From assembly GCF_003073045.1 (NCBI RefSeq), contig NC_037590.1:3498016-3562015 (forward strand): DNA of 64,000 nucleotides, in the 5' to 3' direction. The DNA comes from Pomacea canaliculata. Lineage: Eukaryota; Mollusca; Gastropoda; Architaenioglossa; Ampullariidae. The translations under genes were made by a program, and so were the position numbers. The stretch's first letter is position 1; each line of letters opens with the position of its first letter. Shown in pieces: positions 26,849 to 63,962 of this stretch. The notes below the pieces were generated by a model. That model saw only the letters and a program-made list of their open reading frames with translations. It ran no database searches and was not told where the DNA came from.

Positions 26849-26881
<33 letters not shown>

Positions 26882-38300: not shown

Positions 38301-41300
38301 ACCCAGCATCGGGACTAACCATGAAGACGGCCATGTTCGTGGACTGCTTCGCAGAAAAATATCAAATTAAGTATAATCCCTGACATAGGCGGACACAGTG
38401 GACCAAAAAAAAATCAACTGTCAGCAGTTCTTGGAGGACCTTTTTGACAACAAAAAGTGTCCTGGATGTTCTGATGACCCCTTCTCAGGAGATTAACCTT
38501 TCGCGCGCGGTGATTCAGGGGTCACTCGACAACACAAACATGGCGGCTACTTGAACCGCTTCAGACATGTGTTTAGACCCTATTGTAAACAAACAATCGT
38601 TTTGGTTTCCGAAGTGCTGCTCGTAAATGATTCAAAAGGTCATTATCTATCATTTAAGCTAAATTTGCCATTTAATTTGCTTTTCCCTTTAACTGTGTTA
38701 GAAAAATCCCATTTGGAGATACCTAAATTAGAACTACCAAGTCTCTAAAGGCTGTAGTCAATAGAAAAACTTTATGTTCAACCTCTTTCCAAAATCCAGG
38801 TGAGAAATGGTATGTTTAAAGACATGTACCACTAACGCAGAACAGAGTTTTGGTACTTAATAATGTATTATGAATTCAACAAATGTAAATGTATTTTGCA
38901 CACTGATTAACCTTTACGTGTCAATGAAGGTTTAAAAAAAAGTGGCATGTCCTTTGCAGGTAGATGGAGGAACTCTGTTTACGATGAAATATTCTATAAA
39001 TGGCACTATAGTTGTCAAATCGACTTTGGACTTTGAGAGATTTCCGGCTGGAAGCTCAGCGTCTGTCGTGTTCAACGTCAGCGCCAGGGTTAGTTTCTGT
39101 TTTTTAACTGCTTTGTCTGTGTGTAGCCTGAGTATGAACTTTCTTCTCTTTCCCCACCTGCATGGTCTGTTTCACTTTGCACATGTCTCTATTTGAATCT
39201 CAACTACCAACATGTAACAGCAACAATCGTTTGAACAGCTACTACATCTGTCAAAATGTACGACAGTTTATTGAATACTAAATTGTCTGTATGAAAAAAT
39301 TCAGCTTCATTGACGATGAACTATTGTTGAAATAACTTTACCACTGTATTTAAGGACCAAGGTGGATTGACTAATCAGACAACTCTTACCATTCACATCC
39401 TGGATTCGGATGATCTTCCGCCGGTATTTTACTATCCCGGATGTACTGGCGGATGTAGCGTTGGCAGCTACAAGGCTTCTATCACTAGCACACAAACGGT
39501 GAAGCTTATGTTATCTGTAGTTCTCTTATATTCCTAGTTTTGTACTTTTTATTTTTCTGAAGTCCTTGAACATAAAACCTGGTTAGCTCTGGTTGCCCAA
39601 AATACCTGACAACGACTTATATTCGGAAACAAATTAAAAATTTGCACATAATTTTCAATGCAGTGGTGTAATACATCAAGCATCAAGCCAAGGCAGTAAA
39701 ACATCAAAAAGTAAAGCAGTATATCCGAACAAGTTATGGAAAAGCTTTTACTCGTTTACTGCTTATTAGGCTGTTTTTTCCCGGTGAGCCACTTCTGCAT
39801 GTGTATCTATTCCATGAGCTGCTACGTTCTTCTTCCAGGGGGTGGTGACCAACATTTCGCCTGGAAACATCACTGCCAGAGACGGCGATACCTTGGGTTT
39901 CGCTGTGTCTTACTCCATCAAGCACGGTAGGTACGAGAGTGAGCGTGCGTGCTTGCGATAGTGTGTGTGTGTGATGTATATCTGTGTGATGTATATCTGT
40001 GTGTGTGGTCGAGCGCGTAAGTGCATGCTTGTTACGTGTTGTTACCTGGTGCGTGTATTATGATGATGCTGACTATAATGATGTAATGATGATGATGGTG
40101 ATCTCTGTCTCGCAGATTTGTCAACCCAGCGTTATACGAACAACTTGCACATTAACAGCTCCACTGGTGAATTCTCCATTATCAAGCCTCTGGGTGTCGT
40201 GAACGATTCCGAAATCCTTTTGACCATAGAGGTGACAACCTTCGTGCTTTCAAAAGTCTTGCATCTTGTCAATAGCTAAAATTGAGGTACAAGAGACTTT
40301 AAAAGGCAGGTGTAGGAAAATGCATAGAGTAGTGCTTCTATTCCCTCACACGAAACACCTTAAAACTGTGTATTTCCTGTGTGAAGTGTCTACAAAGAAC
40401 CCGGATATCCAGTGAAATTAGCCCTCAGATTTTAAATAAGTGTCGGTTGCTTGTAGCAGGTATTCCCCTTATAATGCTGATGTTCTGGGACCACTTCATA
40501 TTCCTGATTCAAGTGTATCATGTTGACATGGTGGTGACGGTCAGCGGTATTATTTTACAGGCCACGGAGATATCACATCAGAGTCGTTCGTCAATAAAGT
40601 CACTGCTTCTCAAAATTCCCGACAATTCCGTGCCCTTAAACACAACACCAACACCAGAAAAACCGACAAATGGCGACAAGGAGGAGAACACGGTGATCAT
40701 CATCGTCATCGTGCTGGCGGTGGTGGTGGCTGTCGTTTTAGTCGCACTTGTCGTTCTCACGGTCCTCGTGAGGAAGTTTAGTAAGAAGGCCATCCATCCC
40801 AAAGAGAAACAGCCTCAGGGTAAGAGGGATTTAAGAGAGAGGCTGAGAAGGAATAAGGGAGGGAATGAGAGCGTAAGAGTGAATGAATGTTTGAGTACAT
40901 TTGGGATACAGATAGCATTAATTTTATATTTTAATATATTTTCTATTTGCCTGACATTTCTTTCTTTTGCTTAGGGGCCCGATATTAAATTTGGATTTAA
41001 TTTTGATTTTAATATTAATATCCATTTTCCACAATTTCAATTGTTTCTCTTTTCTTGCTCTGATTACGTATTATTAGGAGTATACTTGCACATAGCAAGC
41101 GATGCTCTAAAACATGTTATACTATCGTCATTATTGTTATTCTTATCATCATTAATCGCCTTGTCCAGAGCGAAGGGTATCGCAAGGGTCTTATATTGTT
41201 ATATATAACCATAATGTGTTTAATGTTGTCTACTGGATTGCTGGCTGACAACAGACACTGGCAGTGAGGGCAGCCAGGATGTGTTGACCAAGCAAGGCGA

Positions 41301-42210
41301 CATCAACAGCACAGACAGTGGCCAGATGTTCGCCTCGACCGCCGCACTTCACATGATATCTAACGGAAGTGTTGCCCCGGAACAGTCCAAGCTGCTGCGC
41401 GGTGGCAGGAAGTGGCGTCGCCGTGGCAGTACGTCCAGCCCAAGATCAGAGAACTCAGGAGGTGATGACAACACGGCAGACGATCGTACCTCGTCCACCA
41501 GCCGACTATACGACAGCGGCACTATTTCTTCCGTCGGCTTCCAGAACGAAAGTCTGTACGACACCCCGACATTCGCCAACGGCTTCGCACAGACGGGAGA
41601 GCTTGATGACGAGCGTTATGTCCCTTTCCCCGCCATCCACCTCCCTGGACAGAACCAGGACAAGAAGAGCCATCGACGTTCTCGTAAACAGAAGAAGCTG
41701 GAACAGGTGAGATGACTTTTCAACTGGGTGATTAAATCCTCAGCATGCAGTCGGATGGAGGTGACAATACAGTCCAGGTTGTTGATCATTTTCATAGCAA
41801 CTGATGGCGCCGACAGGGTAGTCAGGTTGATGTGTGCTAGAATGTACTTTCCAACTGGTTAATTAATCAGTAACGTGCTTTCAGATGGAGGAGAGAGTAG
41901 TAAAGGAAATTTTATACCCTAGATTATGGATACAATACACGGGTAATATACGGGTAGTTTTTACGTGTCCGAAAGTCTTTTTTACGAGTGTGATTGAATA
42001 TCATTAATTCTGGCAATATCTCTTTTTCAAAAGGCGCAGAGGATTAAAGAAGAAGAGTTTGACGGTACCAAGTCCTATCCAATGGACGCTGACCCCACCT
42101 TCTTCACCGAGGCGAAAAAGACAAAGGTCAAACTGTCGACGCGGCGTAAACCCAACACGGGACTGGACCCGAAGTTCTGGCTGACCGTCGACAACGATTT
42201 CATGGACTAA
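35364..42210 (+). CDS. Cadherin-like type I membrane protein, copy 2 (13 coding exons, 656 aa)
   Basis: Coding exons: 35364-35430, 35586-35648, 36216-36418, 36968-37033, 37369-37452, 37883-38005, 38960-39088, 39355-39498, 39839-39926, 40116-40231, 40561-40819, 41255-41706, 42034-42210, all in phase. A signal peptide of about 23 residues is followed by three EC-type repeats: EC1 ending VEPVNEFYPEF; EC2 with NATDRD, LDFE, SARDQGG and HILDSDDLPPVF; and EC3 with TARDGD. A short cysteine pair (CTGGC) lies between EC2 and EC3, and many N-glycosylation sequons are present. The membrane span (about residues 406-431, VIIIVIVLAVVVAVVLVALV...) follows a Thr/Pro-rich stalk. The cytoplasmic tail is about 225 residues, Ser/Arg/Lys-rich, and split over two extra exons compared with copy 1. 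Exons 1-10 have the same order and phases as copy 1, and exon 7 is 129 nt in both, so the pair arose by tandem duplication. The likely role is surface adhesion or recognition; no ligand can be named. Confidence 0.84.
37622..37765 (+). mobile_element. Probable LINE 3'-end fragment
   Basis: The stretch CCGCCAAGGACGGTCCCAAG followed by CCCGG, GGAGGAG and GATGGCCTATGCCCTAGGAG resembles the 3' untranslated ends of a widespread invertebrate LINE type. It terminates in an A-rich tail (AAAAGAAATACAAAAAAGTA). It lies in an intron of cadherin copy 2. The assignment is from pattern memory only. Confidence 0.4.
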
Positions 42211-42819: not shown

Positions 42820-44600
42820 TTCTTCCTTATCACTTTGTCGTTTTTCATGCTTCCTTTCTTAAATTGACATCATGTTACTGACTTTCATTGTGATTATTCT
42901 GTGGTTCAGTGTGGCAAAGTTGAGGTGTTTGTACATTAGTCTGCATATGATTCATATTTAAGGTTAATTTCGACCAAAACATTTAACTTGCCTTTAAAAA
43001 AGTTGACCTGGCAACCCTCAAAAACATTCTTCTGATAACTGATGCGACACCTGCGAAGTGTTAGTTCGTTGAAAGACAAGCCTGCCTGTCATCAGAAAAA
43101 GGCGTTGGTACATAAAAAACCAATGTCCCTTTCATCCCCGGTGATAACAATATAACAAAATAATAATCATTTTGCACAATAGTTTATGGCTAGCTATAAA
43201 TTTTTACGTTGTTTATTATAGTACCTTTGCTCTAAAATGTTTTTGTATATTCATGTTAGCTGACATAAGGAAACCTACATTGTTTGATTGCTTTCGATTA
43301 CTTGAAAGGAAGGTTGATTTTCCCAGAAACGGTCTACTCACAGTCGCGATGTAGTCTGGCCTACATTCAATGGCAGGTGGGAAAACTTTATCAGTCCTGG
43401 CTTACATGAGATATCCGTGTAATACACCATGGAAAGAAGTCATTAGACAATTATTTCTAACGAAGTCCTCACTTCCTATTGCATTCACGCATGCTGATCA
43501 TCTCTCAATGAAATGGGTTAATCTTTGTCTAATGTGTTTTAGGTTTCGCTGATTTTGATGGTGTAGAGGCTGAAGTCATTTGAGGGTCTCCTTAAGTATG
43601 TTTTGGAGAAAATAGTTTATCTTTTAGTGTCAGACATAAAGACAGTAGGGAACAAGGGCAACCGTTTACGGTTACTTATCAATATGTGCCTGCTTCACTG
43701 AAGTACCTGGACACGAACATGAACACATATGGTTCATGGAAATAAAATGTAACAACACTGCTTGCCAGCGGTTAGTTCGAGAGGTTGGTTTCCAAAACAA
43801 TCTACGGGCCATATATGCAAAACCAGTTTCCAGGATGTTCACATCAGCACACCGCCAGATGTCTCACCTGTAGCCATGACGCCAAATTAAAAAAAAAAAA
43901 AGAGGCATTGCGTTCATCATCACGTGACTTCCTGCCTCGTCGGTGACATCAGCATGCCAGAAAAGTTGGGGGAAAGTTGTTCGTTTGTTACCAACAGTCG
44001 TTCGTTCCAAGAAAAAAAACCTTATTTACTCCATTTTCTTGTTAATTCGGACCTATACTCGCAGCTGGCGGCAGCGTTTGGATATACAGTTGACGGGTTG
44101 TCGTGCCCTGCTGTCGGCATAATCAAAACTGTCAATACGCTCACTGCTTCGCGGAGCACGACAAGCTGTTGACAGCCCCAGAGGTAGCGACAGGAACAAG
44201 TGCGACGACAGGTGCTTGGAATACGTGCGAGAGAAAGGTCACAGTCGAGTTCACCTAAAGGTTACAGCGTGCTTTTGTTTCTACCTCAAAGGTAGATGTG
44301 TGCCTCTAGTTCACAGGCTCGACCCCAGGTGAGACTAAGTGTGGAAATAGTTTGGCAGCTAGCATTCACTATGAACAACAGTACATGAGCAACAAAGACT
44401 GTGCAGAGGATATCACCCATGTAACAACGTATCAACGTGTTTCCTTTTCCTAGGTGAATCACATTCTCGCTAAATTTATATTGTATTTAAAAATTAAAGT
44501 CAGGTCAACATAAGCCAGCACTGTACTCGTTACGCTTGTATTCCGATTGAACTTTGTAAGTTATTACTATGTCACCTGTTCGTGTTTCTAAGCGTGGAGA
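42820..44600. other. Gap between cadherin copy 2 and helical family member A
   Basis: Mostly AT-rich sequence with no recognised gene. The promoter and any untranslated first exon of member A presumably lie at the right-hand side. Confidence 0.5.
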
Positions 44601-44656: not shown

Positions 44657-45965
44657 ATGATGGCAATGCTAACCAGCAAGGATGAGTTGTTCTTTAAGTG
44701 CGCCTTACAGACCTACAAGCTGGAGAAAAGTGCGGAAACTCGAAAACACCTGCAAGAGGTTCTGGACTCCTTGAAGGCAAAGTAAGTGTGAGTTGATTGT
44801 CAATAATGCGTCTGTGCAAAGATATTTCACACCTGTGATTCGGTAAGTAACATCTGAGTTACAGTAACTGGGTTACATGTTACAGCACTCACCCAGGCAG
44901 TTTAGTTCCGGTTACACATTCCCCGCTGTACTGCAAAGAATGAGCTTCTCCCGCTCGGAAGAATGTCTCCGCTCGTTGTACCCATACGAGAACAATTATG
45001 TTAGTAACATATATGGGAACGATTCACGTTGTACTCTCGTGTGATCACTACTTCGCACTGAAGATGTTATCTTATCTCCTGTTTTTTAAATTTCAGTGTT
45101 GGTTAAGCAATTTGGAAAGGGCTCTCACTGCGTGTGTGCGTGTGTGCGTGTGTGCACATGCTCATGAGGATGAGTCATGATGTGGGATGGGTATGAGATC
45201 AATTGAAAATGCGTCTGTGTGTATGCGTGAAAGAGAGAGCTACATATAGGCAGGAAGCGAGGTGTGAACGTGACTTGCAGCCTGTACAAGTGTAGGTGTA
45301 CTTCAACTTTATCTACATGAAAGCTAAGCTATGTATCTTTGCTATTACCATGCTTGCCTGCACTTGTGTGCAATGTCACGTGCAGGTATGGGGAGCTTCA
45401 TGGTTGCATTCCATTCAAACGCAAGCTGATAAAGAGAACAGTCAAGCGGGCGTCCAGTGCAGCCTCCAAAGTGCTCGCTGACGAAAGTTGCGATGAACCT
45501 GGCGACGACGAGCAAGGACATCTAGCCACAAACATGCAAGTGTGGATCGACAATCAAAAGGCCTTTGGACGTATCAGTGAAATTAAAGCAGGTTAGAAGT
45601 CTGACCTTGTTGAATGGAAGACTTGCAACTGCCAACTTGTATGGGCGCATGCGTGTCTCATACCAATATTTAACGAAGCACAATTTATTGCTCACCGTCT
45701 CATTATCTCTCCTTTTCTCGCTTGTCTAGGTCTTATAAAGCAGGGTTTGAAGAAGGAGGACTTGGTGAAATACCTGAAGGAAGAGACCTCTGCGCATGAA
45801 AGGGACAAGAGCATCACAGATCATATGAGAAATTTGGTAATGATGGTGGAGAAACTGTACCCGGACTACAAAGCGAATGTGTCAACCACTCGGTATCTCG
45901 GACTGAAGACACAAATAGAAACTATTATTGAAAAATATGATATAGAACTTCAGCGTGTGACTTGA
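44657..45965 (+). CDS. Unrecognised helix-rich protein, tandem family member A (3 exons, 188 aa)
   Basis: Coding exons: 44657-44781, 45386-45591, 45730-45965, with intron phases 2 and 1 and a gtaagt donor at the first intron. The product is charged, lacks a signal peptide or membrane span, and alternates Lys/Arg/Glu-rich amphipathic stretches, so it is probably all-helical and cytosolic. Landmarks shared with member B are KYGELHGC, then RASSAASKVLADES at about residues 60-75, and KKEDLVKYLKEE in the last exon. The first ATG has two further in-frame ATGs within four codons (MMAML). A poly(A) signal lies 54 bp past the stop. I do not recognise the family. Remote resemblance to the TNFAIP8 helical fold was considered, but the order of conserved motifs does not match. 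The gene structure is well supported; the function is unknown. Confidence 0.75.
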
Positions 45966-46018
45966 CATTTTGACTTTTAATGTACAGTGTTTTTTGGGGC
46001 AAACCAAACCATGCCACT

Positions 46019-46024
46019 AATAAA
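46019..46024 (+). promoter_or_regulatory. Poly(A) signal AATAAA, helical family member A
   Basis: AATAAA 54 bp after the stop codon, implying a very short 3' untranslated region. Confidence 0.65.
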
Positions 46025-46442
46025 CAGACATTTATCAGCAAAACATTATTGAGAAACATTTACTCAGCCGTGAAAGCATAAACAAAGCAGATCTTTTCAC
46101 TCTTTGCACTGTAAATCCTGAATAGCAATGTTCAGACAAAAACATGTCTTCGTGCTACTTCTTCTACCATCTTCGGGTCACAGGAACAAATCTTCGACTC
46201 TCGGTTACCGAGTAGTGCTTTGATGATTGTATTTAGAGTTAGAATCGGGTGCAATTTGTTTTAATGATTGCTCGGTGCAGTGTATAACTTTTCCAAATCT
46301 GGGTAAATAATTCCCTTTCCTTCTCGATATTCACACCTATTCACACCTACAAACATAACCATGAACAAAACAGGGCAGACTCATGACGTCACCTTCGTAC
46401 ACAGACTAGCCTCATTAACATATGGTCCCAGCTCTCGCAGTA

Positions 46443-46500
46443 GTTCAATTCAATTCAATACAACTTTATTCATCCACAAGGGCAATTAGTTGTGGCCTTC
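46443..46500 (+). repeat. CAATT-rich dispersed-repeat-like segment
   Basis: Three CAATT units precede acaactttattcatccaca and agggcaatt, a sequence type that recurs at the ends of non-LTR elements in aquatic animals. It may be a retroelement terminus. No coding remnant is visible beside it. Confidence 0.3.
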
Positions 46501-47649
46501 TCAGCATAAACGCATGCATGTACAATTCTGACTTGTATGTTGCTGACCTCTTTCTCCCCATATTAATGTTTGTATTCGAGTATTTTGACAAGAGAATTGG
46601 TGTACCTACCTAGATTGAGCAATAATACCCTGCACCGAGATTAACCGAATAATTAAAAAAGCAAGTGTAACCAACCAGTCCTTTAAGTATTTATCCACTG
46701 ATGCAGTATTCAATCCAAAAGGTCTCGAGATATTGGGGATATTTGTATTTATTGTCCATGAAAACCATTTTACCGATATTTGTAATAAACTACCTTAATA
46801 ATACGCATATACCTGCTTGTGTATGAGCTGGAGAGAATGTTATTAGGTTTACATTTTTGGATAAGTCGCCGTGTGAATGTAGAAACTGTTATAAGCATCG
46901 TTTTTCCTAACTTCCCTGTCTGTTCGTGTTCCCCAGAAACCTAAAGCAACAAATTACTTCCGGTAACTTTGCCAGCTATGCGTAAAATACAAACATTCCG
47001 CGTAACAGAGGAAATATTTTTACTTAAAAACACTTTATTGTGATAACAAAACATTCTTCGTAGCTGCGAAGCAGTTTGTCCCTACAAAAGAGCTGAGTGA
47101 GGAGTTTTGTGTATATATATACAGAGAAGCATGAGATGCTGGTCGATATTTATATGTCCTTCAGCAGATAATTATAGGTCAAAGGTAAATGCAAAGTGTC
47201 TCATTACCTACTGACCGTAAGGGCGCGAAATCGTAGGTCTAGGGCACAACACAGCCCAACCCTCTTCTACCGCTCCACTGTAAAGAACTATCCTAGGATT
47301 TATTACTATTACCTAGGTAACAAATTTTAATGCCTTTTCACCTCTTAATGGTAAACACTTGATTTATACAGCGCACACTCATGTTCGTAGAGGAGCCTGC
47401 TCTTAGCGCTTGAAACAAGAACGAGACATGAACAACATATGAAAGACGGAAAGATGAACAAAAGTACTGATGACTAATAAAATACAAATATAGATAATGC
47501 AAAGAGGATGAATCGGGAAACAAAAACTGTCAAGAGTTTTGTTAATCTGCAGATGGAGAGGATTGGGAAACTTGCCAGTAAACGAAAATAAAGGAGGGGT
47601 ACCAGCACTGTGTGGACTGTTGTTATGAGTAACTTTTCATATCAATAGT

Positions 47650-47940
47650 AAACAAAAAAAACAGCTCAGGAAATTTGAGAAAAAATGTATAATGGAGAAA
47701 AATACCTTGTACATTCAGGGCCACAAGACAGACATTGCTAATGTGTCTAATGAAATCACGAAATGGGCCGAGGTTGCTCGGACTTCGCTATACTCCGGGG
47801 GAGCAGAGGATGTTTGCAGGCTGCTTACGACAGGACAAGACTTCTTTCCTGATGGTACAAAGCTAATGACAATCTTTGTAGTCCCCAAACTTGATCAACC
47901 TATAGGTGACAATGATGTAAGACCGAAATTATGGTGTTGA
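47650..47940 (+). other. Isolated coding-like exon or ORF, unknown
   Basis: An open frame from an upstream stop through ATG 47692 reads MEKNTLYIQGHKTDIANVSN, then ITKWAEVARTSLYSGGAEDV and FFPDGTKLMTIFVVPKL. Composition is balanced, without simple repeats, unlike the other intergenic frames here. A possible donor (gtgaca) follows at about 47906. It lies between helical members A and B but does not align with them. It could be an exon of an unrecognised gene, a retroposed fragment or a chance frame. Confidence 0.3.
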
Positions 47941-50784
47941 AAGTCAGTTGAAAGAAGTTGATTCAAATGAAGCCAGAAAACACTGAAGGAGAGAGGTGTG
48001 GGGAGCAAAAGGTGGTAGGGGCAGGAGGTGGGTAATGGTGGCGACAGTGGTGGTGGGACGATGAGGAGCAACAACAGCAGCAATAATTAGACTAGGGATG
48101 TTGATGGGTGATGGGTGATGGGTGATGGGCGGGAGGGAGGGAGCTACCTATGCTAATGAAGGTGATGATAAGCAGTATGTCCACACTCCAGGGATCAGTC
48201 TGTTTATGGACAGAGTTAAAAGGAGCATGCGAGTGTCACAGTGTTTGGCAGTTCGCCAGACTGCACATCGAAAAACTTACAACTGTGTATGTCAGTCCGC
48301 TTTACCTGCCTGAGAGCAAATAAGAAGTTACACCACATGGTATGTCTTTTGCGTCTGCTGTTTCTCTAAGACACATATTACTACAAAATCTCACATCAAT
48401 CGTCGTCGTCTTAACGTTTGTCGACCTGCTTATTAGCGTTTAAGGTTCAAAATATTCAAAAGAACGATAATTTAATTTTTATTTTTGTGATGACATCCAG
48501 TCATGAACAAGTCATGAATTTCAATTCGAGTGACACTATAATAATTGTTTCTGTTCTGCATGGTAACACTTCATGTTCTCCGACTGTAAGAGAAACGCCG
48601 GCAGAAGGTCCAGCAGAGAAGACTTGGAGGTGAAATCACAGACAAGTCCAGATAAAACACTCGATCAACAAATCATCGTCTCTGAACTCAATTACATTGG
48701 TCCATGTCATCGGTGATTTAAAAGCGAGGTCCTTTATCGCAGGTGCAAAGGGTGGTGGTATTTGCAGGCACCAGCAAAGCAGACCAAACAACAGCAGCAA
48801 AGCTCCTTTTCACACAGAACACAGGTAAGAAAATAGCTGTAAAAAAACAAGCCTTATAACAAACATTTATAAAATCCTCATTATTCAGCTAACAATTAAA
48901 TATAGGGTACGTTCGCTTAACTATGACCGTTTGGTGATGGAATGATGTGAGCCTAAATATTGACTAACCCTGAGTTTGTGCCAGAAAGATAGTGTTAAGT
49001 GTCGAGCAGTTCAGAGATAACAGTAAGTTGCAGTTTAAAAAGAGGAACACTCCTGAAATCCACCTAGCGTTTGCTGGCTGCGGCTAATCATAACATTACA
49101 GAAACATATAAAATATATCCTGTTTATCCTTGGTGTTATGTTATGTTGGTCTTATAATGAGCATCCTTTCTGTATTATTCATCTGCCAGTTTCTCTGTGT
49201 AGTCTCTTTTGTCGGAGTGTGTCATCTTCTTTACCTCTTTGTTTAGTTTTGTATATCTTTGTCTGTGTTGTTCCTTCAGGAAATCTGTTTCCTGCGCGTG
49301 TGCACCCATACACACACATTATGCACCACCCACAATTCAGTTCCACCACTAACTACATACATACCTAAATAAAATGTGCATGCAAAGAGCAAGTGGCATT
49401 CAGTGGTTCTGCTCATCCTGCTGAATAACATTCAAACGGTAAATGTTGAATGAACTCTTTATTGTAATATAACCTGTCTTCTTTAGTAGTACCAGTCCAC
49501 TTCTTTGATAAACTTTACATGAACAGAACAAAGTAATATTTCTTTAACAACAATAAGTCCTCCAAAGAACAAAAAGAGGCAACACTCTATTTACTCACCA
49601 CTATTTTACAGAACCCGCTTTCTCTTCCTCGCTCACTTCTAGGTGACTGGAGGTAGACACCTGCTCAAACAAAGGTACAGCCTCAATTTACGCTGGTTAC
49701 ATAAGTGTCAGGCTGATAGTTGCAGGGTGTTTCACCATTTGATGAGTCGCCAGTCTGGCCACCCTGGCAGGAATTCTTGTTCTCGACGATGATTATGTAG
49801 AGAAATGTGTTTCCTCCTACAGGTGATTTCGCGCTGTGCGGAAATTGGAGGAGGGTGGGGCAGAAGGGGTAAGGAAGTGATTACAGTTGCTGGTCGATGA
49901 TGCAGATGTCGGATGCTGTTTCTGATGCTCTTTTCCAGTTGTTATTCCCTGCTTTAGCGCCCATGAAGCCTTCTTAGTCCGCAGGTTGCCAAATCCTATG
50001 TTACTATGTTCCTATATTCTAGACTGGTTTATTATTCGGTTTCTTTTTTTTCTGGTTTATTCTACTTTTTTGTTTGTGCCTTTATTATTTATCTGTTTTA
50101 TCTGAATATTTGCCTTCATTTCTGAATTTCGCATCTCACATTTATTGCTAACTTGATGAACATTCTTTCTTCTGGAAAGAATTTACTCAGAATGTTGAAG
50201 AAAGAATATATAAAGCTTACCTCACTGTCCTTTCTAACTGGTCACTGCCCACTCGACAAGCATCACCAAACCGAAATAAGCAGAAAATTCGGTGTTAGCA
50301 TTTCCTTCGATGGTCCATTATCCACCTTCGAGGCAGCCATCTTTCGCACACGTCTTGAAAGGGGTGCAGCTGCAATATTGTTCAGTAAATTACCCCAAAT
50401 CGGAACCAGAAGCTGAGTGAGAACCGTTTGCAAAGATTGTGTATGTGTGGTCAATAACTTGATGTCCCGACAGCATTGTAAGCAAGTGTTTAAGAAAAAG
50501 AAGGACGGGGTCTATGTAATCAATCAATCTTCAGCTTAAAACCGGAAATCGCGCTTAAGGGCCGATTAGAACCCCTGTGAATGATCATCAACAAACGCAT
50601 GTTACAGCGAAAGGGGATAAGTCTCTATTTACTTACGAGGAAGTGTGTAGGCAAAGGCTACAGTAAACTTCTGATGTATCGGGCTGTGAAGTGTATCAAC
50701 AAGATGCTCTGTTGTAGTTAGACATGGCTGCATGAGGTGTTCATACCAATCTCCTTTTCTTGACAGAGTGGCCAGGCTCTTACA

Positions 50785-53105
50785 ATGACTGACATGCAGA
50801 CTGAAGCAGAAGTCCTCCAGGCGTGCGCCCGAGAGACATGGAAGCTGGAAAACTACAGAACTCGTCGACAGCACTTCCAGGCGGTCCTAGAGGACTTTCA
50901 AACCAAGTAAGTGAAGGAGCTTTGATGTTTCACATCGATGAAAGCGAAAGCCAGGATATAATTTAAGCTTTCGATTACGTACAACAAACATAATTGTGTT
51001 GCCTATTTAAAGCTGAACACATCATTTCCTTGCGAAAAAAGATGATCTAAGTACAGTGGAACTCCGGTTATTCGGTCTTCAATTAACAATGCATTCGGTT
51101 ATCTGGGATCAGCTTTTAAAAAAATGCTAGACATCACAAGACCGCCAACAATTCCGATGACAGGAATGTACACTATGTGTGTGTGACAGCTTTCAGTTTT
51201 CTTTCTTGAGCATGAAGTGGATTCAAACTTTCTAAGAGACATCCTAACACCTCGCAAACTTCGCTCGTCAATAAAATTAAAGCACTGCAAGAACACAAAG
51301 CAGCGTCTCCTCTCTGATTTTTTTTTCAAGAAAACTTCGTAAACAACACAAGAAAGGTGAGAATTTCACTGTAGACACCTATTCTAGCATTGTTTTTACG
51401 GATGATAATCCGTAATTTTTTTCTGGATGACAGGTGCCGGATGGTTGATGTTCCACTGTACCTGCATCACTTTTAGAAAGTAAAGTACAAAGCGTTCAGG
51501 GTCACGTGACATAGGTCGGAGAGGGGCTGATCAAGAACTCAAAGGAGTTACACCCATGTATATCAATCTGTTGATCATATGATATACCATCACTGAGAAG
51601 TGAGAAACTGTAGCACGTCTAATGAGTTGCTCTGTTTTATCACTCGAAAACGAGTCTGTTCATCTTTTTAAAATGTTTCAGTCCGGCAAAACAACCTCTG
51701 CAAAAATATGGTCGGTCGGTCGGTCGGTGGGTGGGTGGGTCGGTCGGTCGGTCGGTCGGTCGGTCGGTCGGTCGGTCGGTCGGTCGGTCGGTCGGTCGGT
51801 CGGTCGGTTGGCGAGTTAGGGGGTTAGTTGATTCTTTTGAATGAAATCTGTTATCAAACACCTCTTGGCAGGTACGGGGTTCTCCGAGGATGCCATCCGC
51901 TGAAGCGAATCAAGCTGCGGACCGCAGTCAGAGACGCCTCCCGCGCTGCATCTCGAGTACTGCTAGCAGACGACTCATCGGAATTCGATTGGACGGACTG
52001 CACAAATAATCAGCAGCACTTACTGAAAATCGAAGAAATTCAAAGAGGTCAGAGAAGTGATAATTTATCACGTTTGTCCCTCTTTCACTTTCAGGTTGTT
52101 GTTTTTTTTTTCAGTCACAGCTACAATGTCGTGCATGTGCGCGGTGTAGTTTAAAATGACATAAGCACTCTGTCGGTCTAAGGTTGTTTTGTTTTTTAAC
52201 CCGAAAATATGAACGAACTTTTAACCAAATTTGGAGGAAGTTTTATCAAATTCTCGTCTACGAACTTTAGCCTTTGTTTTGGTCAAACTGTCGTCAATAT
52301 TAGTCCAAAAAGGAAGAGACATTAAGAACAGGGCGGCAAAGATTATATAAGACTAGACTTGTTAATCCAACGATTTTACTTCATCGTGAACACGTTTGTT
52401 GTTGCACGTGCGAGTTATCTTGGGAGAATGGATTTGTTTCAGTCGTCCTTCGTGATTGATTTCACCGTCACTTCTTCTTCTTAGGTCTGATTCTGTCTGG
52501 AAAAAAATGATTCACCATCTTCCTCCAGAAACAGCTTTATTTTGCGGCACTTCAAGTATTACAATAAATATCCTATCACTAAATTCGTGGCATTTTTGTT
52601 TGTCGACCCTGAGTCCAATTTCTGCCAAAAAATTGTGTGGCCCGTGTCAGCATCAGAGGCGGACAAAAAATAAGGAAAGGTAGAAAGGAATAGAACAAAG
52701 CTCAGGAGAGAATAAAAGAAGTTTGCTTAAAATTGTGAAGATGGCGGAAGGACAACATCTGCCTATCTTTTATCTTCATTTCAATTTAAAAGTCTTCAAT
52801 TTTCATTTACTAATTGCTTACTGTCCATTTTATGTTTTTTAGAGTTGGCTGGTCGTCAACTGACACAGGAGCAGCTGGCGGAATATCTCAAAGTCCAGCA
52901 GCATGAAAGTGAAGAAGAGGACAAATTGTTGACTGTGATGAGAAGACTTTTAAGCCGAGTAGAAAGGCTACACTACGAGTACATCAACAGTGTAGACTCC
53001 AGTCCCTACCAGATGCTGAAACAAGAGGTGATACGGATTATCGCTGATTACGAAAACGTATCGGATCATATGTTGGAGATCCTGCAGGTACAGAAAGGAC
53101 ACTAG
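50785..53105 (+). CDS. Unrecognised helix-rich protein, tandem family member B (3 exons, 186 aa)
   Basis: Coding exons: 50785-50906, 51872-52047, 52843-53105, with the same phases (2, 1) as members A and C. It begins MTDMQTEAEVLQACARETWK. Exon 2 carries KYGVLRGCHPLKR and RDASRAASRVLLADDSSE, clearly alignable to member A. Exon 3 carries LTQEQLAEYLK and a long charged helix. There is no signal peptide or membrane span. A polypyrimidine-AG acceptor ending at 50766, just before the ATG, suggests an untranslated upstream exon. A GTAAGA donor at 48825 following a purine-rich stretch is a candidate for that exon. Intron 1 contains a 405-bp pogo-like element and a GGTC microsatellite. A poly(A) signal lies 41 bp past the stop. 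The function is unknown. Confidence 0.76.
51054..51458. mobile_element. pogo-like MITE (405 bp)
   Basis: The left end CAGTGGAACTCCGGTTATTCGG and the right end (…CCGGATGGTTGATGTTCCACTG) are imperfect inverted repeats flanked by TA. Its termini share CAGTGGAA with the Tigger-like element at 23.7 kb, but the internal sequence differs and no transposase is visible. It lies in intron 1 of helical family member B. The ends are more diverged than those of the 823-bp element, so it is probably older. Confidence 0.75.
51710..51808 (+). repeat. (GGTC)n microsatellite
   Basis: About 24 tetranucleotide units with a few GGTG variants, in intron 1 of helical family member B. They give spurious open frames of repeated PTDR and VGRS on the two strands. 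Confidence 0.98.
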
Positions 53106-53145
53106 GCTGCTGGTGTACAGCAATGTGGCGCACCCTCAAAATGGC

Positions 53146-53151
53146 AATAAA
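53146..53151 (+). promoter_or_regulatory. Poly(A) signal AATAAA, helical family member B
   Basis: AATAAA 41 bp after the stop codon, similar in spacing to member A. Confidence 0.65.
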
Positions 53152-53154
53152 TAT

Positions 53155-55848
53155 CAAAGTTACATGAGTAAAAGGTACAAAACAAAACCTGTCATAGACA
53201 CATGCGACACCCTTGTATTTCGAACGTGTTTATGTGATTGACCTATAAAGGTATGACATATATGTTCATTACATGCATGTATATATACCTACTTTCCATA
53301 TATATGTACATAAATACATAATTATATATATATACACAAAAACATATGTTTTGTGCTCTGTTAATAACAAATGATGCGTGCTGTTAAAAAAATTGGTAGC
53401 CACGTGAAGTTGCCTTTTCTACTGAAGAAAGAAAGCAATATGGGATTGCCGTTATTTAAATTCCAAACACATAAATACTAGTACCTCGTGGTGGTGGTGT
53501 GAGCGTGCTTATATCATTTGCATGCATTCAACTTTTTAGCTCGTAATCGTTCTGCTAGTTTTTAGGAAAAAGATGAGTGGACACTAATAAGCAGTTTTAA
53601 GGACCTCAGGAACGGTCTGTCGGTCCAAATATTTATAAATATATTTAGTGAATTAGTCTTTTGTACAATAAGCTGAGCTTACGCTTGCAGAACCTGACAC
53701 CATTACAGTGTCCGAGATCAAACACTAAAAAGCGAATGTTGTTGCGAGCAGTCCTAAGGAAGTTAGTTTTTCCACCTAAAGATGATTTCCCACTGAGGGA
53801 AGAGGGGTGTGCAGGAAACGGAAGTACCCGGAGAAAACCTCCGACAGATGGCCCTGCGAACAGATGTCACATACAGAGACTGTCCCGACACGAGATCCGA
53901 ATCAAGCGCCTCTGAAGTGGCGATAAACGAGTGTGTTAATCAATACTCTTTGGGCCAGGGTCACTGCATGGGGTCAGGTCATGTGTTTATCTCGACTCCG
54001 TGTAAACAAAGGTGAAGGACAAGAAGGTGGCAGTCCTGTGTCACAGACTACGCTGTTAGATGACAAATAGGATGATGAGCGGAAATATGACAGCACTCAA
54101 CCAACAGATATTCTCGTACGCTCTGCTTCCGGCTGTGCTGACGTAGTCTGTGGGCTGAGGGGTAGAGATAAACTGTGTTTAGCAAACAGTCTGCACTCCA
54201 TACTGATGACCACTGGCGTTGGTAAGACGTCTGCTTCGATGCTGCCCTGCATTCGGTGACAGCTCAGACAACGGTACGTGTTTTAGGTTAAAAAATTTAA
54301 TTTGAAATGAAAGTTTTGAGGGGTAGGTGGACGGGTGGTAGTCTATTACTTAATTGCTGCGAAAGTTTCGATAGCAATGATGACAGTGATTATAGTTGAT
54401 GATGAGCGTTCAGAGAAATATGGACGAACGTTTGAGCAAGTTTGACAAAGTTTTTCTTTTATATAACTGTTAGATAAAAGCTTCGCCACTCTTGCTCGGA
54501 CGTTTTTCTGCGTTTGTCTGGTTAAAGAACGGCCTTTACTCCTCCACAAAGCTTATCTCGAAAATACAAAATGTTCTTCTATAGAATGTTGTATGAATCA
54601 TCCAGTGTGAACACTCTTTGTGACACTGCCAGTAATTAAAGCCGATTACGATGCGTGTACTCTCTGCTGGCCTCATGCCATGCCCTGTAACACCATCGTC
54701 ATTGTTTCCTGCAGCACGTGAGATTGTCTGTCTGGCTTCCTGCACAGCTTGTCGCGTGTTTACAGCCCAGAATAACTCATCTATCTCTATAGTCTATACG
54801 ATCAGGATTTTATAGACCATTTTTTTAATTAACAAAACAGAAGCCAAATGGTAATTATCAGCAAGACATTGGTGATACCCGAATGTGGAGTTTATATTTA
54901 CACTAGCCGTGCAGCTCTCAATGGACGTTACGGAATAATTATTATTTTATGGATTGGAATCACAAATAGTAGACCTGCATGAGTGCTATTACTTTATTCC
55001 GTTCTTAAACTGCATGGATTAATTGGAAAAAGCACGACCAGACCTCCCTTTTATTTAATAAACGTGAACTACTTCTGTGGAAATTAATGGGGGACAATGA
55101 CTAAGCCTGAAGCATGGCTGTCGACTGTTTTAAATCGCTGGTGGTCCGTGATGTTTACAGTGTTAGGTGCTAACAAATAAAAACAAAGTACACACTTTTG
55201 TTGCTTATCAAGCTACAAACAGTTCCGCTCAGCACACACCTGCTGATCTCTCAGGACAGGTCATTGCAGGCCTACCTGTGTTTTTCTTGTCTGCCTCGCA
55301 ACAGTTCGCTGTGGTCTAGTAGTTGATGGTGGCTCATCAGTCATCAGTTATCAGTCTGCGGTGACCCAGCACAGGTCAGTCTGTAGCTCACATTTACATG
55401 TGTCAGCGATGAAGAGCAGCGAGCCAAAGTTTGACAGTTCGATCATTCCGGCCGAGATGTCCGTCACTGAAGATGATTTAAACTAGTCAAGACCTTACTT
55501 CAAGTAAACTAAAACTCGAAACTTCTTTCTTGAGTAAACGTTTTCATCGTTTAGTACTGACGAGGTAGAACTTTTTTAAATATGTCCGTTAGTGTCTGAG
55601 GTTAAAGGATCGCGAGTCGTTGGTTTATATCTTAGCTCCAATACATTCTTTGGATATAAAGCCATGAAGTAGAAGGCCTGACCGTTGGTGTGTTTCTGGT
55701 TGATTGGCTTTTGTTGTTTTTGTTTTTTGTTTGTTTGTTGTTGTCTTTTTACTTTCATCACTGTTCACTTTCTGTGGAGTGCATCTTCTGTATGTTGTTT
55801 TCTCTCAAGACCCGATGCTACAGATTTGGTGGACAACTCCAGACTAGG
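53155..55848. other. Gap between helical family members B and C
   Basis: Holds TA/CA microsatellites near 53.3 kb and the SINE-like core repeat at 53.8 kb. Possible untranslated first exons of member C lie at about 54.2 or 55.37 kb (GT donors after purine-rich sequence). Confidence 0.45.
53795..53945 (+). mobile_element. SINE-like conserved-core repeat (MetaSINE-type candidate)
   Basis: This contains GGAAGTACCCGGAGAAAACC and ACACGAGATCCGAATC, a conserved core shared by several animal SINE superfamilies (the CCGGAGAAAAC motif). It is in the gap between helical family members B and C. The open frame across it is not a gene. The family assignment rests on recall of the core motif and is tentative. 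Confidence 0.45.
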
Positions 55849-57321
55849 ATGCAGGAGGTTTCAAAGGCCGAGCTGCGAGAACAAGATGTCCGTGTCACGA
55901 CTGAACTGAAAGAAGTCCTGGAACAAAGCAACGACCTACGGCGAATTTTTAATCAGCTTAAAAGAAGGTCTGCTTTGAAAGTTGTCCAGTAGTATCTGTA
56001 TCCATGTTACTTCTGTTACAGATGCTTGTCACATACAAAAATGAGAAAACATGTAAATAATTGCACCAACCTCTTAGTACTAGAACTAAAATATCTAAAC
56101 GTACATTTTCTGGGCATAGAATCACGGGGGAAGGAGGGGTTCGATCAACGTTCAATATCAAATAACATCATTGGCATGACTTAAGGAAGTAGCTGCCTTT
56201 AAAAAAAACTGGTAAATGGAAGCCTTCGCTTACAGAGCCTTATGTGCTGCATCCCAAAAATAGCTGTCTGAATTTTTCGTTTTCTACCCAAACTTTTCGA
56301 GAGGCATATATTAAGACCACGATGAATTTCAAATAACATGCTCCGTATTCGTCATAAAGTTTGATCCTAAATTTGCACAGCTTGCTGTTGTTTGTTTTGC
56401 TTTGTTTGTTTGCCAAACTAAAGATGAAATGTAAATACACTCATAATCAACATGTTTGTTGAAGCTATGACAAAAACCAGGACCTCTGCTGTCCCTGTCT
56501 GTATGGTTCCTTGAGGCGAATGATACATGAAGCATGCGCTCAGGCTTCTCGGACAAAGAGCCACTACGACACTAGAAATAAAAAATCCAGGAAAGAGGCG
56601 AGAGGAGTGGTAACGCGCCTTTTAGATGAAGCCAAGAGCATCTCTGAAGCTGGCCAGGCAATCATGCACTTGGACGACGAGAGAGAAAGTAAGTCCTACC
56701 TGCGAGCTGGGGTAGCTGTAAGGAAGAAGTGAAAGACTGGAATCGAATTTTTTTTTTTTAAATAATGAAGAGAAGGATGTGAGGAGATGAAAGTTGTTTG
56801 GTTGGCTGATTGTTGTTATATGCCAAGTCACCAGCTTTGGCAGACCCGATAATTTTCTCTATCTAACCCGACAGAGAAAAAGAACTTTTATCTTTCATAA
56901 GCTAAGGCTAAACGCGCACAACAGTGAGAAACTGCAGATCGAACCCACGATCCACTAGTTACAAAGTTATCAAAGAGTGCTCAATTGTATTCATTTTCAT
57001 TTTTATTCTACATTCCTATGCACCATTCCAACAAGTATTTTTTCTGCAGAGTTAAAAAGACTGAGCAAGAAAGAGCTAAAACGTGACCTTGAGCAGAAAC
57101 AAGCAACTTTGGGTCTCGAAAAGATGGCCATTCAGCAAATGAATAACCTTCTTCAGGAGCTGGAGCGTCTAGAGGTGGAGGTCAGAAGATACTGGGTGTG
57201 GTCCCGCAAAGACCTCTTGGTGCGCGGTATTGAGAACACACTTTACGCATTTGAACAGTTGAACTGTTCAACCCCAAGAGAACCAAGACAGCAGCAACAC
57301 CGTCGAGGATATCAAGTATGA
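55849..57321 (+). CDS. Unrecognised helix-rich protein, tandem family member C (3 exons, 187 aa)
   Basis: Coding exons: 55849-55967, 56516-56688, 57050-57321, with phases 2 and 1 as in members A and B. Exon lengths (119/173/272) track those of B (122/176/263). The first donor (gtctgc) is weak and the exon 2 acceptor (ttccttgag) is unusual, so that boundary is the least certain. Exon 2 opens RMIHEACAQASR and contains GVVTRLLDEAKS. Exon 3 contains LSKKELKRDLEQKQATLGLE, corresponding to LTQEQLAEYL in B, and a long Leu/Glu-rich helix, possibly a coiled coil. The C-terminus is Gln/Arg-rich. It is more diverged than A and B are from each other. An 11-codon upstream ORF (55815-55847) ends one base before the start codon. 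Function unknown. Confidence 0.68.
56812..56978 (-). mobile_element. tRNA-derived SINE
   Basis: On the minus strand an A-box-like GAGCACTC is followed, at tRNA spacing, by GTAACTAGTGGATCGTG and the B box GGTTCGATC. A tRNA-unrelated body follows (GCGTTTAGCCTTAGCTTATG, then AAAGATAAAAG) and ends near TTGGCATATAACAAC. The copy sits in intron 2 of helical family member C, about 70 bp before the exon 3 acceptor. The exact ends are approximate, and no target-site duplication was confirmed. Confidence 0.6.
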
Positions 57322-57468: not shown

Positions 57469-57474
57469 AATAAA
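57469..57474 (+). promoter_or_regulatory. Poly(A) signal AATAAA, helical family member C
   Basis: AATAAA about 150 bp after the stop codon. A second one follows at 57536-57541. Confidence 0.55.
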
Positions 57475-59118: not shown

Positions 59119-62013
59119 TCACAAGCCTGCCCCACCCCTGCATGGTGGTGATGGGTCCACTTTTTGTGAACTCTTCTCCCACTGACTTGAAGTTTTGGCC
59201 TGTTAAGAAAAAAATATATATATATATAAAGAAAGGAAAAAGGTTTCCAAAATTGTTTCCTACAAATTAATTCAAAATTTCCCTAGAACTAAAGGTTTTA
59301 GCTGTCTCATTTAAAATTGTTTTTACATATCGAATATGAAAATGTGGTTGTTCATTTTACACACTATTAAACAGTGTAAACACAAATATACACACACAAA
59401 GCATGCTCACAAAACTTTTTAAATAAAAGAAGCAAGAAATCTGTAAAGAACTGAATTGAGCAACATTATGGCTTCTACAGAACTTAAAAGACATTTCAGT
59501 TTCAGCTTAAATACCAAAAAAACTATTCACGTTCTGCAAAAACGTAAGAATGTAAAATTATCAAGTAGCTTACAACAATGGACAATGCATGTAATCCTTT
59601 GGAAAACTCCTCTTGCAACAAGGTATTGATTTTTCTATGTCTCTGAAATTACAATCATTTAAAGACTGTTTTTATGTGATTCTCCAAAAGATATTTTTTA
59701 TATTAAAAAGAGCCTATCATATTAAAATCATAAATGTAAGTGCAGTGGTGATGCTGCTACTAAATGAAACATACTAAGTCAACCCTGATGTTCCTAGGAT
59801 TTAAAAACTATTGCCAAAATGAGGAAGACTTAAATCTGTCATGTGCACACAGTTGGCATTTTCCATTAACTTTAAATGAACTCCTGCAAATCAAATTTTC
59901 CAGCTTATAATAGAGCTCAGTTCTCTTTCATTAATCTAGGCAAAGAAAAATAGTTTCTCACCTCAACTAAGGACACACCCTCAAAGGCATCTGATACCAC
60001 AACAACCTTAAAGTGTGTCTCTGACCCTAATGATAAAGACAACAATGTTATAAGTGAAGCAAGTTCTGCTGAATAATAAATGGTTGCATCAAAGGACATT
60101 ATTTGCTATACTCAGAAACAAAGTATATAAACACATTGTCATAGCTTCAGCTATAATTAGTACTGCTATGGATGAAAATTCACTTTTAAATTATGCATCC
60201 ATGATAGAAAAAAATCCCTTTACATGCCCATGAATGTTTTTTTGGTTGGTTTTTTTTTTTTTGCCATCAAAAATTTTGCACTACACTGTCATTTACTTCA
60301 TTTAATACTATCTCATCTTCTCCTTGAATGCAGTGAAAAGATCCTCAACATTAGCTGATTATTTACATATACAATTACTCAAACATAAACCTTTTTCCAA
60401 GCTCCAAATACTCTATAGTTAAGTGTAGAAAAAAACACTGAACAGTAAACCAGGAAATGCTCTTACCTTTGGGAACATTGTGCATATAACTCTCATTAAC
60501 AACGTCCAGTACTTTGGGCTGAAATTAGGCCAAAAACATAAAGTTGCACAAAATTTTGTTCATTTTCTCAGCACATTTCTGTATAAAAAAGGTAAGAAAT
60601 CCAAAAGTAAGCATGGTAAATATTATTTGTAAAATATGATATTTCATGTCATATGTTTTAAGTTCCACCCTAATCATATTTTATGCAAATCAAATGATCT
60701 CTAATGTTCATACAGTGATTTAAATACCTGTAACAATAGATTTATCCCATAATTTTATAGAATGTTACAATTGTTTATCTCAAACAATGTACATCCATCT
60801 TTAAAATTAGTGTTCCTCTAAATAGCAAAAATGGTACATCTTACCTGAAATGTTGTGCTAAGTTTATCTCTGATGGAATTTTCCAATGGCTTCTGGTCAC
60901 AAAAAAACATATTTTAAGTTCTTGCTGCATTGTACATCAATGTCATCACTCATATAAATAAAATATTCAAAATATACAAGTTCAAAATTATTTTAATAGT
61001 TTAATAGCATTTGCTATGTAGTGAAAGTTAATAACACACAAAACAAAATCAGTAAGTAAAATGTAATGCCGTGGGTTTATGCGCATATGCAATAATGGAT
61101 TTGTAAAGCGCATTTTCATGATCTGACTTTTGCCTTTGGAAGACATTATTTTGAGTCCTTTGAAGTCTTTGGTCAGTTAGGGAAATTGACAAATAGAGAA
61201 TTGCAAATATCTAGCTATCACAAAAACAGACATGGTGGCAAAAACTGACAGGAAAGAGTCAGATGTGACCAATCCTGCAAAGTTCAATGAAAATAGACTT
61301 CCACACTGCATTGATGTGAGATTCAAGAGAAAATGATGTGTTGAAAGTAACACCAAGACTCTAAGCAGTCTAGGAGAGTGAAACGTTAACCCTAGAGAAA
61401 GCAGTAGAAGGTGGCAGAGGATACTGTGTGTTGTGTGGTGGTACAGACTGTATATTTTGTGTTATGTGGTGGTGCAGAACTGCTGGAGCTTGAAAACGAG
61501 GCTCGATGCTAGCAATTGCGTATCATCAGCATAGATGTGATGCTGCAGGCCAAAGTGGAGGATGGTGGAACTAAGTCGCTGGATGTACACAATGAATAAA
61601 AAATGCCCAAGAACAGAGGCACCCCAAACTTCACAGGAGCAGGCAAAAGATGTGGTGCCACAACTACCATATATTGGATGCAATAAGACAGGTAGGACCA
61701 GAAACATTTCAAAACAATAGGTATAACCACGTAAAAATGTGTGATTACGCAAATGCGTATATGGATAAAATTCAGCTTAACTGTATGTTTACAAATGTTT
61801 ACAAATGCAGTGATAAGATGGCAAAAACTATTTTGCTGATCGATCATCAATCATATATTTTAATGACTTTTATAAACCTGTTAATGTTTATAATACCTGG
61901 ACCATGGCACTCATTTGTCGACAATGGCTTGATGGTTGTGTCTGAACAGGTACCACAGACCTGAAAAGGTTTAATTTACCGAAAGGTGTAGCACCACTCA
62001 TGGATCTTGCCAT
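59119..62013 (-). CDS. BOLA1: BolA-like protein 1 (complete, 6 exons, 143 aa)
   Basis: Coding exons on the minus strand, 5' to 3': 62013-61897, 60892-60845, 60518-60467, 60026-59962, 59642-59574, 59199-59119, all GT-AG and in phase. The N-terminal ~35 residues are Arg-bearing and acid-free (MARSMSGATPFGKLN), consistent with a mitochondrial presequence. The BolA domain runs from about residue 40 to 125: KPLENSIRDKL, then VNESYMHNVPKGSETHFKVV, SDAFEGVSLVERHR and GLHALSI. The C-terminal cluster-ligand histidine of the family is present (His112), as is the RHR motif, although the usual following LVN is replaced by KIN. The C-terminus AKTSSQWEK...DPSPPCRGG matches the BOLA1-specific tail rather than BOLA2 or BOLA3. 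In the family, BOLA1 works with glutaredoxin 5 in mitochondrial Fe-S cluster handling. It is head to head with DCTN4. Human BOLA1 has 137 residues. Confidence 0.9.
61090..61760 (-). mobile_element. Decayed non-LTR retrotransposon (LINE, Jockey/CR1-like) reverse transcriptase fragment
   Basis: Minus-strand frames show WSYLSYCIQYMVVVAP, then GHFLFIVYIQRLSSTI and HHIYADDTQLLASS, which is the RT catalytic YADD block. Post-RT pieces resemble LDYCNSLFVGLP (here LDICNSLFVNFP at about 61180-61215). At least two frameshifts and several stops separate the pieces, so it is a dead 5'-truncated copy. Sequence near 61100-61130 (GCGCTTTACAAAT on the minus strand) resembles a LINE 3' end. It lies in BOLA1 intron 1, in the same orientation as BOLA1. 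Confidence 0.8.
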
Positions 62014-62333: not shown

Positions 62334-63962
62334 ATGGCGACCATGATGGAGGTCGATCTTGTTCGCTATCTGTGCTCCTGCGGCAGAAGGCACCCACAAT
62401 GTCGTTTATATTTATGCAGGCATTGTCTAAAACTACGTTGCAGTGACTGTGTACAGCATGAGGTATGCTGATATAACTTATTTTTATTGTAGTTTTTACC
62501 AGACCAACTTACAATACCTATGTGCGGCAGTGCTTCATTATGACGTGCTACCGATGTCTTATTATTATTATAATACATTTATGGAGTTGGTGAAGTATTT
62601 AGATAGGTATAACAATAATGATCAGTGACATTCAATGAACAGAACACAGGTTTTATTAGTGAGTAACCATTTAGTGTTCAACAAATTCGATCAAGATACC
62701 AATAATGAATAAGCTAATCTCTGCATCCCCTGAGGTTCTCTTTTCGTCTCTTTCGTTCTTTCTGTCTGGTCTTGCTTTTACACGATCTTGCATATTTACA
62801 TGACTGTATGTGTATATTTTGCAGTTCTGAGTTTAATGTTGTAGATTCCTTCGTAAAAACAAAGTATTACATGACGTGACTTTTAGTTATATAACATCAT
62901 TATACTAGGCAGAAGAGGATTATTTATGATATGAATTTCTAAGTTTAATGTATAATTGTTGGTTTTAAAACTGTTTCAGGTAGATTCGCCATACTGCCCC
63001 AACTGTCTAGAAAATATGCCAGCATCTGAGGCAAGACTGAAGAAGAATAGGTGAATGCCTCTGTAGATAACTTAGAAAATATGTTAATTTAAATTTTGAT
63101 AGTTTTCTTTTCCTATAGGTGAAAGTGTGTACCAGGATCTGTTGAGTGCTTCGGTTTAATGGTTTATGTTATTTAATTCTAATGCTGTTTAAAATAGTCA
63201 AGCTTTGTAAAACTGTGTTTATATTCAACAGTTATATTATTAAATATTTTCAGCAATATTAAAAGCAAAAATGTTAAAATCTGCCTTTAGATGCAGCAAC
63301 TGTTTTGACTGCCCAGTTTGTGGACATACCCTAATGACTCGTGCAACAAGCCAAATGGTTACCAATCCAGAAGACCCAGGCAAATCAACACCCAAGAAGA
63401 TGTATTACATGGCTTGTGGATTTTGTCGATGGACTACGCGTGATGTTGGTTTACATGACCAGAGTGTTGGTATGTGATATATCAGTTTCAAGCTTACCTA
63501 CCAATCTCTTGTACAACAAGGTATTAGCGTACTTAAGTGAAAATCATTTATTCGATTGCCATGAAAGGTTATAATTTTTTTTTTTATGACTTGATTAACT
63601 TCTCTAGTATACATTTGAAAAACTATTTTTGTCAAAACTAATCTATATTGCTTTTTTCAGCTAATGGAGGTTGGCCTGAACAAGAAAATCCGAATGTTAA
63701 AAGGGTAAGAAGTCTAATTTTGTACCTGTAGTGAATAAAATTGGTGCTCAAAGCCTGATGATTTAGACAAATTTTACTCTGCTCAAAGATATTAGCTTCT
63801 ACAGCAGTACTTCTTTTTCAAGAATAAATTCAGCTGTTGTATTTTTTTTAATAATTTCAGATTGGTGCTCTGCTGGAGAGTTATCGGGCTGTTGCACAGC
63901 GAGAGAAAGCTGAAAGGGAGAGGAAAAAATATGTAAAGAGGCGAAGTCACCAAACTTTCCAA
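62334..63962 (+). CDS. DCTN4: Dynactin subunit 4 (p62), 5' part, runs on past the last exon seen here
   Basis: Coding exons: 62334-62462, 62980-63050, 63291-63469, 63661-63704, 63861-63962, each GT-AG and in phase. The gene continues beyond the window. The start was chosen because an in-frame stop (taa) directly precedes ATG 62334; MATMMEVD allows later starts at 62343 or 62346. About 174 residues are visible. They carry the cysteine-rich zinc-binding N-terminal region of p62: [56 protein letters not shown] and [13 protein letters not shown], then a basic helix ([14 protein letters not shown]). The match to vertebrate DCTN4 is close over SPYCP.CLENMP and [12 protein letters not shown]. In the family, p62 is part of the pointed-end complex of dynactin on the Arp1 filament, which helps dynein bind cargo. 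The 5' untranslated region is probably short. Confidence 0.95.

Follow-up and report, generated by a model that had tools for sequence, protein, structure and literature searches.

A tandem cluster of three genes for small helix-rich proteins of unrecognised family in the apple snail Pomacea canaliculata

The analyzed window, a stretch of 64,000 bases of chromosome 1 of Pomacea canaliculata (C1:3498016-3562015), contains three tandem genes, here called A, B, and C, and our analysis supports their description as a cluster encoding small, soluble-looking, helix-rich proteins of unrecognised family. In our judgment, it is very likely that A and B form an old tandem set, with C as a probable third member; no convincing match to a recognised family emerged from the libraries searched. 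All positions given below are positions of the window.

The three genes are located on the + strand and consist of three coding exons apiece. All six introns are bordered by GT-AG, and the intron phases are 2 and then 1 in each gene. The products comprise 188 aa (A), 186 aa (B), and 187 aa (C, in its preferred model). Coding exons measure 125/206/236 bases in A, 122/176/263 in B, and 119/173/272 in C, and are separated by introns of 604 and 138, 965 and 795, and 548 and 361 bases, respectively. Coordinates, strand, exon number, phases and product lengths of the original prediction were thus all reproduced.

Splice sites were scored against a general metazoan consensus, and scores are given as percentiles among all GTs or AGs of the window. 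The four donors of A and B range from the 96.5th to the 99.5th percentile, their acceptors from the 89.8th to the 99.8th. Coding exon 1 of gene A (44657..44781) ends in phase 2 at the donor AAA/GTAAGT (99.1st percentile). Exon 2 (45386..45591), which encodes KYGELHGC...ASSAASKVLADES, is bordered by an acceptor at the 89.8th and a donor at the 97.5th percentile and ends in phase 1, and exon 3 including the stop codon (45730..45965) follows an acceptor at the 99.8th percentile. In gene B, exon 1 (50785..50906) has a donor at the 99.5th percentile, exon 2 (51872..52047; KYGVLRGC...ASRAASRVLLADDS) an acceptor at the 94.7th and a donor at the 96.5th, and exon 3 including the stop codon (52843..53105) an acceptor at the 94.6th. 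Intron 1 of gene B also contains a GGTC tetranucleotide microsatellite of 24.8 copies (51710-51808).

The model of gene C is less sharply defined. Its coding exon 1 (55849..55967) and exon 2 (56516..56688) are joined across an intron with a weaker donor, AAG/GTCTGC (91st percentile), and a weak acceptor (79th percentile). The start of exon 2 is uncertain, alternatives being 56465, 56481, 56544, 56559, and 56561. Intron 2 has a donor at the 99th and an acceptor at the 87th percentile and leads into exon 3 including the stop codon (57050..57321). The preferred form of 187 aa is one of at least 14 stop-free models that begin at the same ATG.

High-scoring donors upstream of the start codons suggest that each gene may possess an extra 5' non-coding exon. 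The candidate introns are 44329..44592 in gene A (CAG/GTGAGA ... CTAAG/C; donor 99.8th, acceptor 86.9th percentile), 48825..50766 in gene B (CAG/GTAAGA ... GACAG/A; 99.9th and 99.1st), and 55375..55809 in gene C (CAG/GTCAGT ... TCAAG/A; 99.3rd and 87.9th), and the putative non-coding exon of gene A would end at 44328. On these consensus scores the candidate of gene B is the best supported of the three; since the pairs were selected visually, the percentiles make every candidate look better supported than it is. Downstream, an AATAAA begins 54 bases past the stop codon of gene A (46019..46024) and 41 bases past that of gene B (53146..53151), while the first AATAAA behind gene C (57469..57474) begins 148 bases past the stop. 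The hexamer has a background of 132 occurrences in the window, approximately one per 970 strand-bases. This is twice the mean of 69.3 found in dinucleotide shuffles.

The cluster is flanked by genes of recognised families. The upstream neighbor is a cadherin-like gene (Pfam Cadherin, E 1.6e-08). Two 3' ends of membrane proteins on the + strand (26718-27332 and 36200-42210), whose cytoplasmic tails are alike by eye, suggest that two tandem cadherin-like genes precede the cluster, the Pfam match stemming from the second one. Between gene C and the dynactin p62 gene lies a BolA-like gene fragment on the - strand (59920-60105; Pfam BolA, E 3.8e-06), which is presumably BOLA1. The first exons of the dynactin p62 gene, which we take to be DCTN4, follow on the + strand (62340-63960; Pfam E 1.8e-22). 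A literature search for Pomacea together with dynactin subunit 4 returned no paper.

A and B are genuine coding genes and homologous to each other. Their products are identical at 65 of 176 aligned residues (37%), and the local alignment scores 238, where shuffled sequences average 33.3 (z 37.9); none of 1000 shuffles came as high. The likeness extends over the complete coding region: for each of the three exons, not one of 5000 shuffles scored as well. At the first, second, and third codon positions, identity amounts to 55.1, 59.1, and 34.7%, which indicates conservation at the level of the protein rather than of the DNA. This codon-position pattern refutes the idea that A and B are chance open frames. 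The broader proposal that A, B, and C are all chance frames without coding function could draw on the unremarkable codon scores of C; given the protein-level conservation of A and B across three exons with common phases, we regard it as extremely improbable.

Synonymous change between A and B is saturated (pS 0.73, formal dS 2.58), and the two genes agree at only 8 of 27 comparable fourfold sites; pN is 0.44. Saturation at synonymous sites together with the 37% of residues kept indicates an old duplication of proteins under constraint; judged from these substitution patterns, the two are conserved rather than fast-changing. Along this line, when the gene regions were compared with their introns, no DNA match of A to either of the other two genes scored E <= 1. 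B and C matched over short segments only, and the strongest of these (E 0.008) lies in opposite orientation. Given this near-absence of DNA similarity, a recent duplication is not visible.

These numbers bear directly on the function first proposed for the cluster, namely a rapidly diverging, lineage-specific family with a possible immune or regulatory role. The term "rapidly diverging" does not follow from the data, because the synonymous sites of A and B are saturated and their duplication is old and constrained. A rapidly evolving immune family would be recognised by pN as fast as pS, which is not what A and B display. The tandem arrangement, the lack of known relatives in the libraries tried, and the low identity of C to A (20%) and B (19%) fit the proposal. 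Against it stand, besides the substitution pattern, the small number of three genes, with no further copies in the 100-kb flanks and none elsewhere at E < 0.5, and the lack of domain evidence for immunity among our family searches. We consider the proposal as a whole very unlikely.

Membership of C is probable, although not certain. In whole-protein comparisons C does not stand out from shuffled sequences: local alignments as good were obtained with 54 (A-C) and 38 (B-C) of 1000 shuffles, global alignments with 55 and 101. Anchoring the alignment at the exons changes the picture, as the summed score yields p 0.0042 for A-C and 0.0006 for B-C (5000 shuffles). Taken separately, exon 1 contributes p 0.0008 (A-C, 5000 shuffles) and 0.0124 (B-C); exon 3 lends weak support (p 0.063 and 0.055); and exon 2 is weak for B-C (p 0.051) and lends no support for A-C (p 0.50). 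All these exon-wise values are somewhat favorable to C, since its exon borders were reconstructed from the lengths of the original prediction and may have been guided by likeness. A profile of A and B was applied to 5409 ORFs from a region of 264 kb. Behind the exons of A and B themselves, its top hit is exon 3 of C (E 0.16), narrowly ahead of the next, unrelated ORF (0.38). By hhalign, positions 117-159 of the A+B alignment were paired with positions 102-144 of C at E 0.018 for this single comparison, with a probability of 2.5% against a one-sequence template.

The evidence on C may also be read differently: C could be unrelated to A and B and lie next to them by chance, or its model could be spurious in part. 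The whole-protein shuffles, the weak splice sites of intron 1, and the low hhalign probability point in this direction, as do the motifs. The original prediction had described motifs alignable in all three proteins, and this holds only in part: KYG.L.GC and ASxAASxVLxAD are confined to A and B, and C keeps just the L-S-K-K-E-L-type motif, which lies close to the beginning of its third exon. Searching the genome with C did not retrieve A or B, nor did A or B retrieve C. Codon usage ranks A at the 96th, B at the 90th, and C at an unremarkable 82nd percentile among 363 ORFs, in a test which was trained on 875 codons of neighboring genes and lacks the power to settle the status of C. On the other hand, strand, phases, and similar exon lengths are common to all three genes, and the exon-anchored alignment, the profile ranking, and the hhalign pairing also speak against a chance neighbor. 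The identical phases and strand and the near-equal exon lengths, along with the exon-wise comparison, led us to rate C as a probable family member and to regard an unrelated gene as rather unlikely. Of the claimed three-gene family, the A-B relationship is thus firmly established, while that of C fails the whole-protein shuffles and passes the exon-anchored ones.

Searches of the genome (440,159,624 bases on 24 contigs, of which C1 accounts for 45,418,568 bases) with A, B, C, exon 3 of B, and a chimeric query yielded this locus alone at E < 0.5. Since each of these searches scores no more than 4 to 9 candidates, very diverged copies could be missed, and the counts are lower bounds. Weak matches with E between 0.52 and 7.1, on contigs C1, C2, C7, C11, and C14, were attributed to chance. 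The A+B profile detected no convincing further member in the flanks of 100 kb on either side (joined region of 264 kb, including 100 N bases). The signature at the start of exon 2, AGRTAYGGNNNNYTNNNNGGNTGY, occurs at four places in the genome, compared to six for a reversed control; two of the four are A and B, and the other two, which run into a stop within 30 residues and show no family motif, were dismissed as chance. An origin from transposons, for which many copies would be expected, was rejected on the same genome-wide count, a lower bound, of a single locus at E < 0.5.

None of the libraries searched gave a convincing relative, in keeping with the statement that the proteins hold no recognised domain. 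In Pfam-A, no match comes near the curated cut-off for A, B, or C: the best are PMI_typeI_hel for A (E 0.069; 14.1 bits versus a cut-off of 23.4), HTH_37 for B (E 0.037; 14.3 versus 27), and KARI_C for C (E 0.17; 12.6 versus 29.1), none of which reclassifies a product into a known family. NCBIfam (best E 0.12) and PHROGs (best E 0.082) returned weak matches only. The PDB sequence search gave best E values of 1.1 for A, 0.88 for B, and 0.16 for the A+B profile, and the A+B+C profile reached E 0.012 with OR34 (2n41). The weak PDB sequence matches, such as OR34, LSD1, MafB, and Fos, were read as matches of composition. Viral and prokaryote contigs were searched with the A+B alignment and two peptide patterns per collection; the 90 and 29 pattern hits, respectively, included no relative. 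Titles and abstract openings of the papers listed by a literature search mention nothing of a family made up of A, B, and C.

All three proteins lack a hydrophobic span. The maximal Kyte-Doolittle mean over 19 residues is 0.44 in A, 0.55 in B, and 0.31 in C, and the N-termini are hydrophilic. By this crude hydropathy test, the claimed absence of signal peptides and membrane spans is upheld, and secreted helical cytokine-like proteins were rejected as a candidate on the same grounds. A basic helix of strongly amphipathic character comes after the conserved KYGxLxGCxPxKR in both A and B. The helical moment peaks at up to 0.69 in A (windows 54-57) and 0.64 in B (windows 53-56), and residues 42-80 carry a net charge of +4 and +3, respectively; the mean helical moment of A as a whole is only about 1.4 sd above that of its shuffles.

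AlphaFold2, run for A and B with the two-sequence A+B alignment, predicted both proteins as all-helical and with similar layouts, in agreement with the helical character proposed from the sequence. Confidence is low for A (mean pLDDT 45.4) and modest for B (63.0; pTM 0.57), and of the five models of B two exceed pLDDT 59 and three fall at 40 to 43. The model of B would form a five-helix bundle with helices at residues 7-43, 50-72, 84-103, 108-148, and 154-184. At low confidence, A shows a similar layout in which the first helix is broken into two parts and an additional short one occurs at 155-159. From the positions in B, exon 1 roughly corresponds to helix 1, exon 2 to helices 2 and 3, and exon 3 to helices 4 and 5.

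Since the model of A was too poor, the model of B was the sole query for Foldseek (threshold E <= 10), and the individual matches discussed here are among the best 50 of those to each database. None of 256 PDB and none of 212 BFVD matches lies at E <= 0.001. First among the PDB matches is a de novo designed helical protein (E 0.17), whose TM of 0.55 to the query is the best among the matches listed, followed by a chain from a complex of MCL-1 and a designed inhibitor, the partner not being specified (E 0.18, TM 0.39). The first plainly natural protein among the matches listed is a FAT domain (E 0.32, TM 0.29).

This outcome bears on another reading, that A and B belong to a known eukaryotic helical family from which they have diverged too far for searches with one or two sequences to reach it; coiled-coil subunits of complexes and four-helix bundles of the FAT or talin type would be examples. 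The alignment is indeed very shallow, and the natural proteins among the best 50 of the 256 PDB matches are generic bundles (FAT 0.32, CINP-c1orf109 0.65, TLNRD1 1.6). FAT and talin-like bundles serve protein binding. The FAT domain of focal adhesion kinase and other natural four-helix bundles (3s9o, 1k40, 6xz3) resemble the predicted A and B in being all-helical with amphipathic helices. Among the matches listed, FAT domains reach E 0.32 to 1.9 with a TM to the query of 0.26 to 0.37 and have no sequence match, and the TLNRD1 bundle reaches E 1.6 with TM 0.32. In contrast to the four-helix bundles, the model of B, at pLDDT 63, comprises five helices, of which the first and the fourth are long. 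The chains of the CINP-c1orf109 complex (9gwj, 9lgo), with 202 and 174 residues, are similar in length to A, B, and C, but the comparison (E 0.65 and 1.1, TM 0.33 and 0.32, rmsd 10.8 and 13.6) does not amount to a match. As no fold match is significant, the highest TM among those listed belongs to a designed protein, and no Pfam match comes near its cut-off, we regard descent from a known family as a real possibility that nevertheless falls clearly short of probable.

Our preferred reading remains an old tandem set without a recognised family. One ancestral gene on chromosome 1 would have undergone an old tandem duplication that gave rise to A, B, and very probably C. Each gene would encode a small intracellular helical-bundle protein, with five helices in the model of B; both cellular place and topology are deduced from the predictions. 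The long amphipathic helices may pack into a bundle or an oligomer, and the conserved basic amphipathic helix 2, following KYGxLxGCxPxKR, may bind a partner, be it a protein, a membrane, or a nucleic acid. If so, this second helix would be the likeliest contact surface. That the proteins act as non-enzymatic helical interaction modules is a tentative proposal, which we rate slightly nearer to doubtful than to probable. Points against the reading as a whole are the weak models, the lack of a significant fold match, and the failure of C in whole-protein shuffles. A bolder version, in which A, B, and C would be founders of a new metazoan family with a five-helix topology of its own, exon-split helical units, an old apple-snail cluster, and a dedicated binding module, appears to us quite unlikely.

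Orphan gene clusters are common in animal genomes. As in orphan (taxonomically restricted) families in general, the cluster consists of small proteins without a family match and of tandem paralogues; unlike such families in general, A and B are old and constrained. What the cluster adds to a sequenced mollusc chromosome is a set of orphan genes that is well delimited, old, and constrained, with exact gene models. Should the family not span the gastropods, it would be an ordinary orphan cluster; if it does, it would allow one to test to what extent conserved helical proteins escape detection by profile methods.
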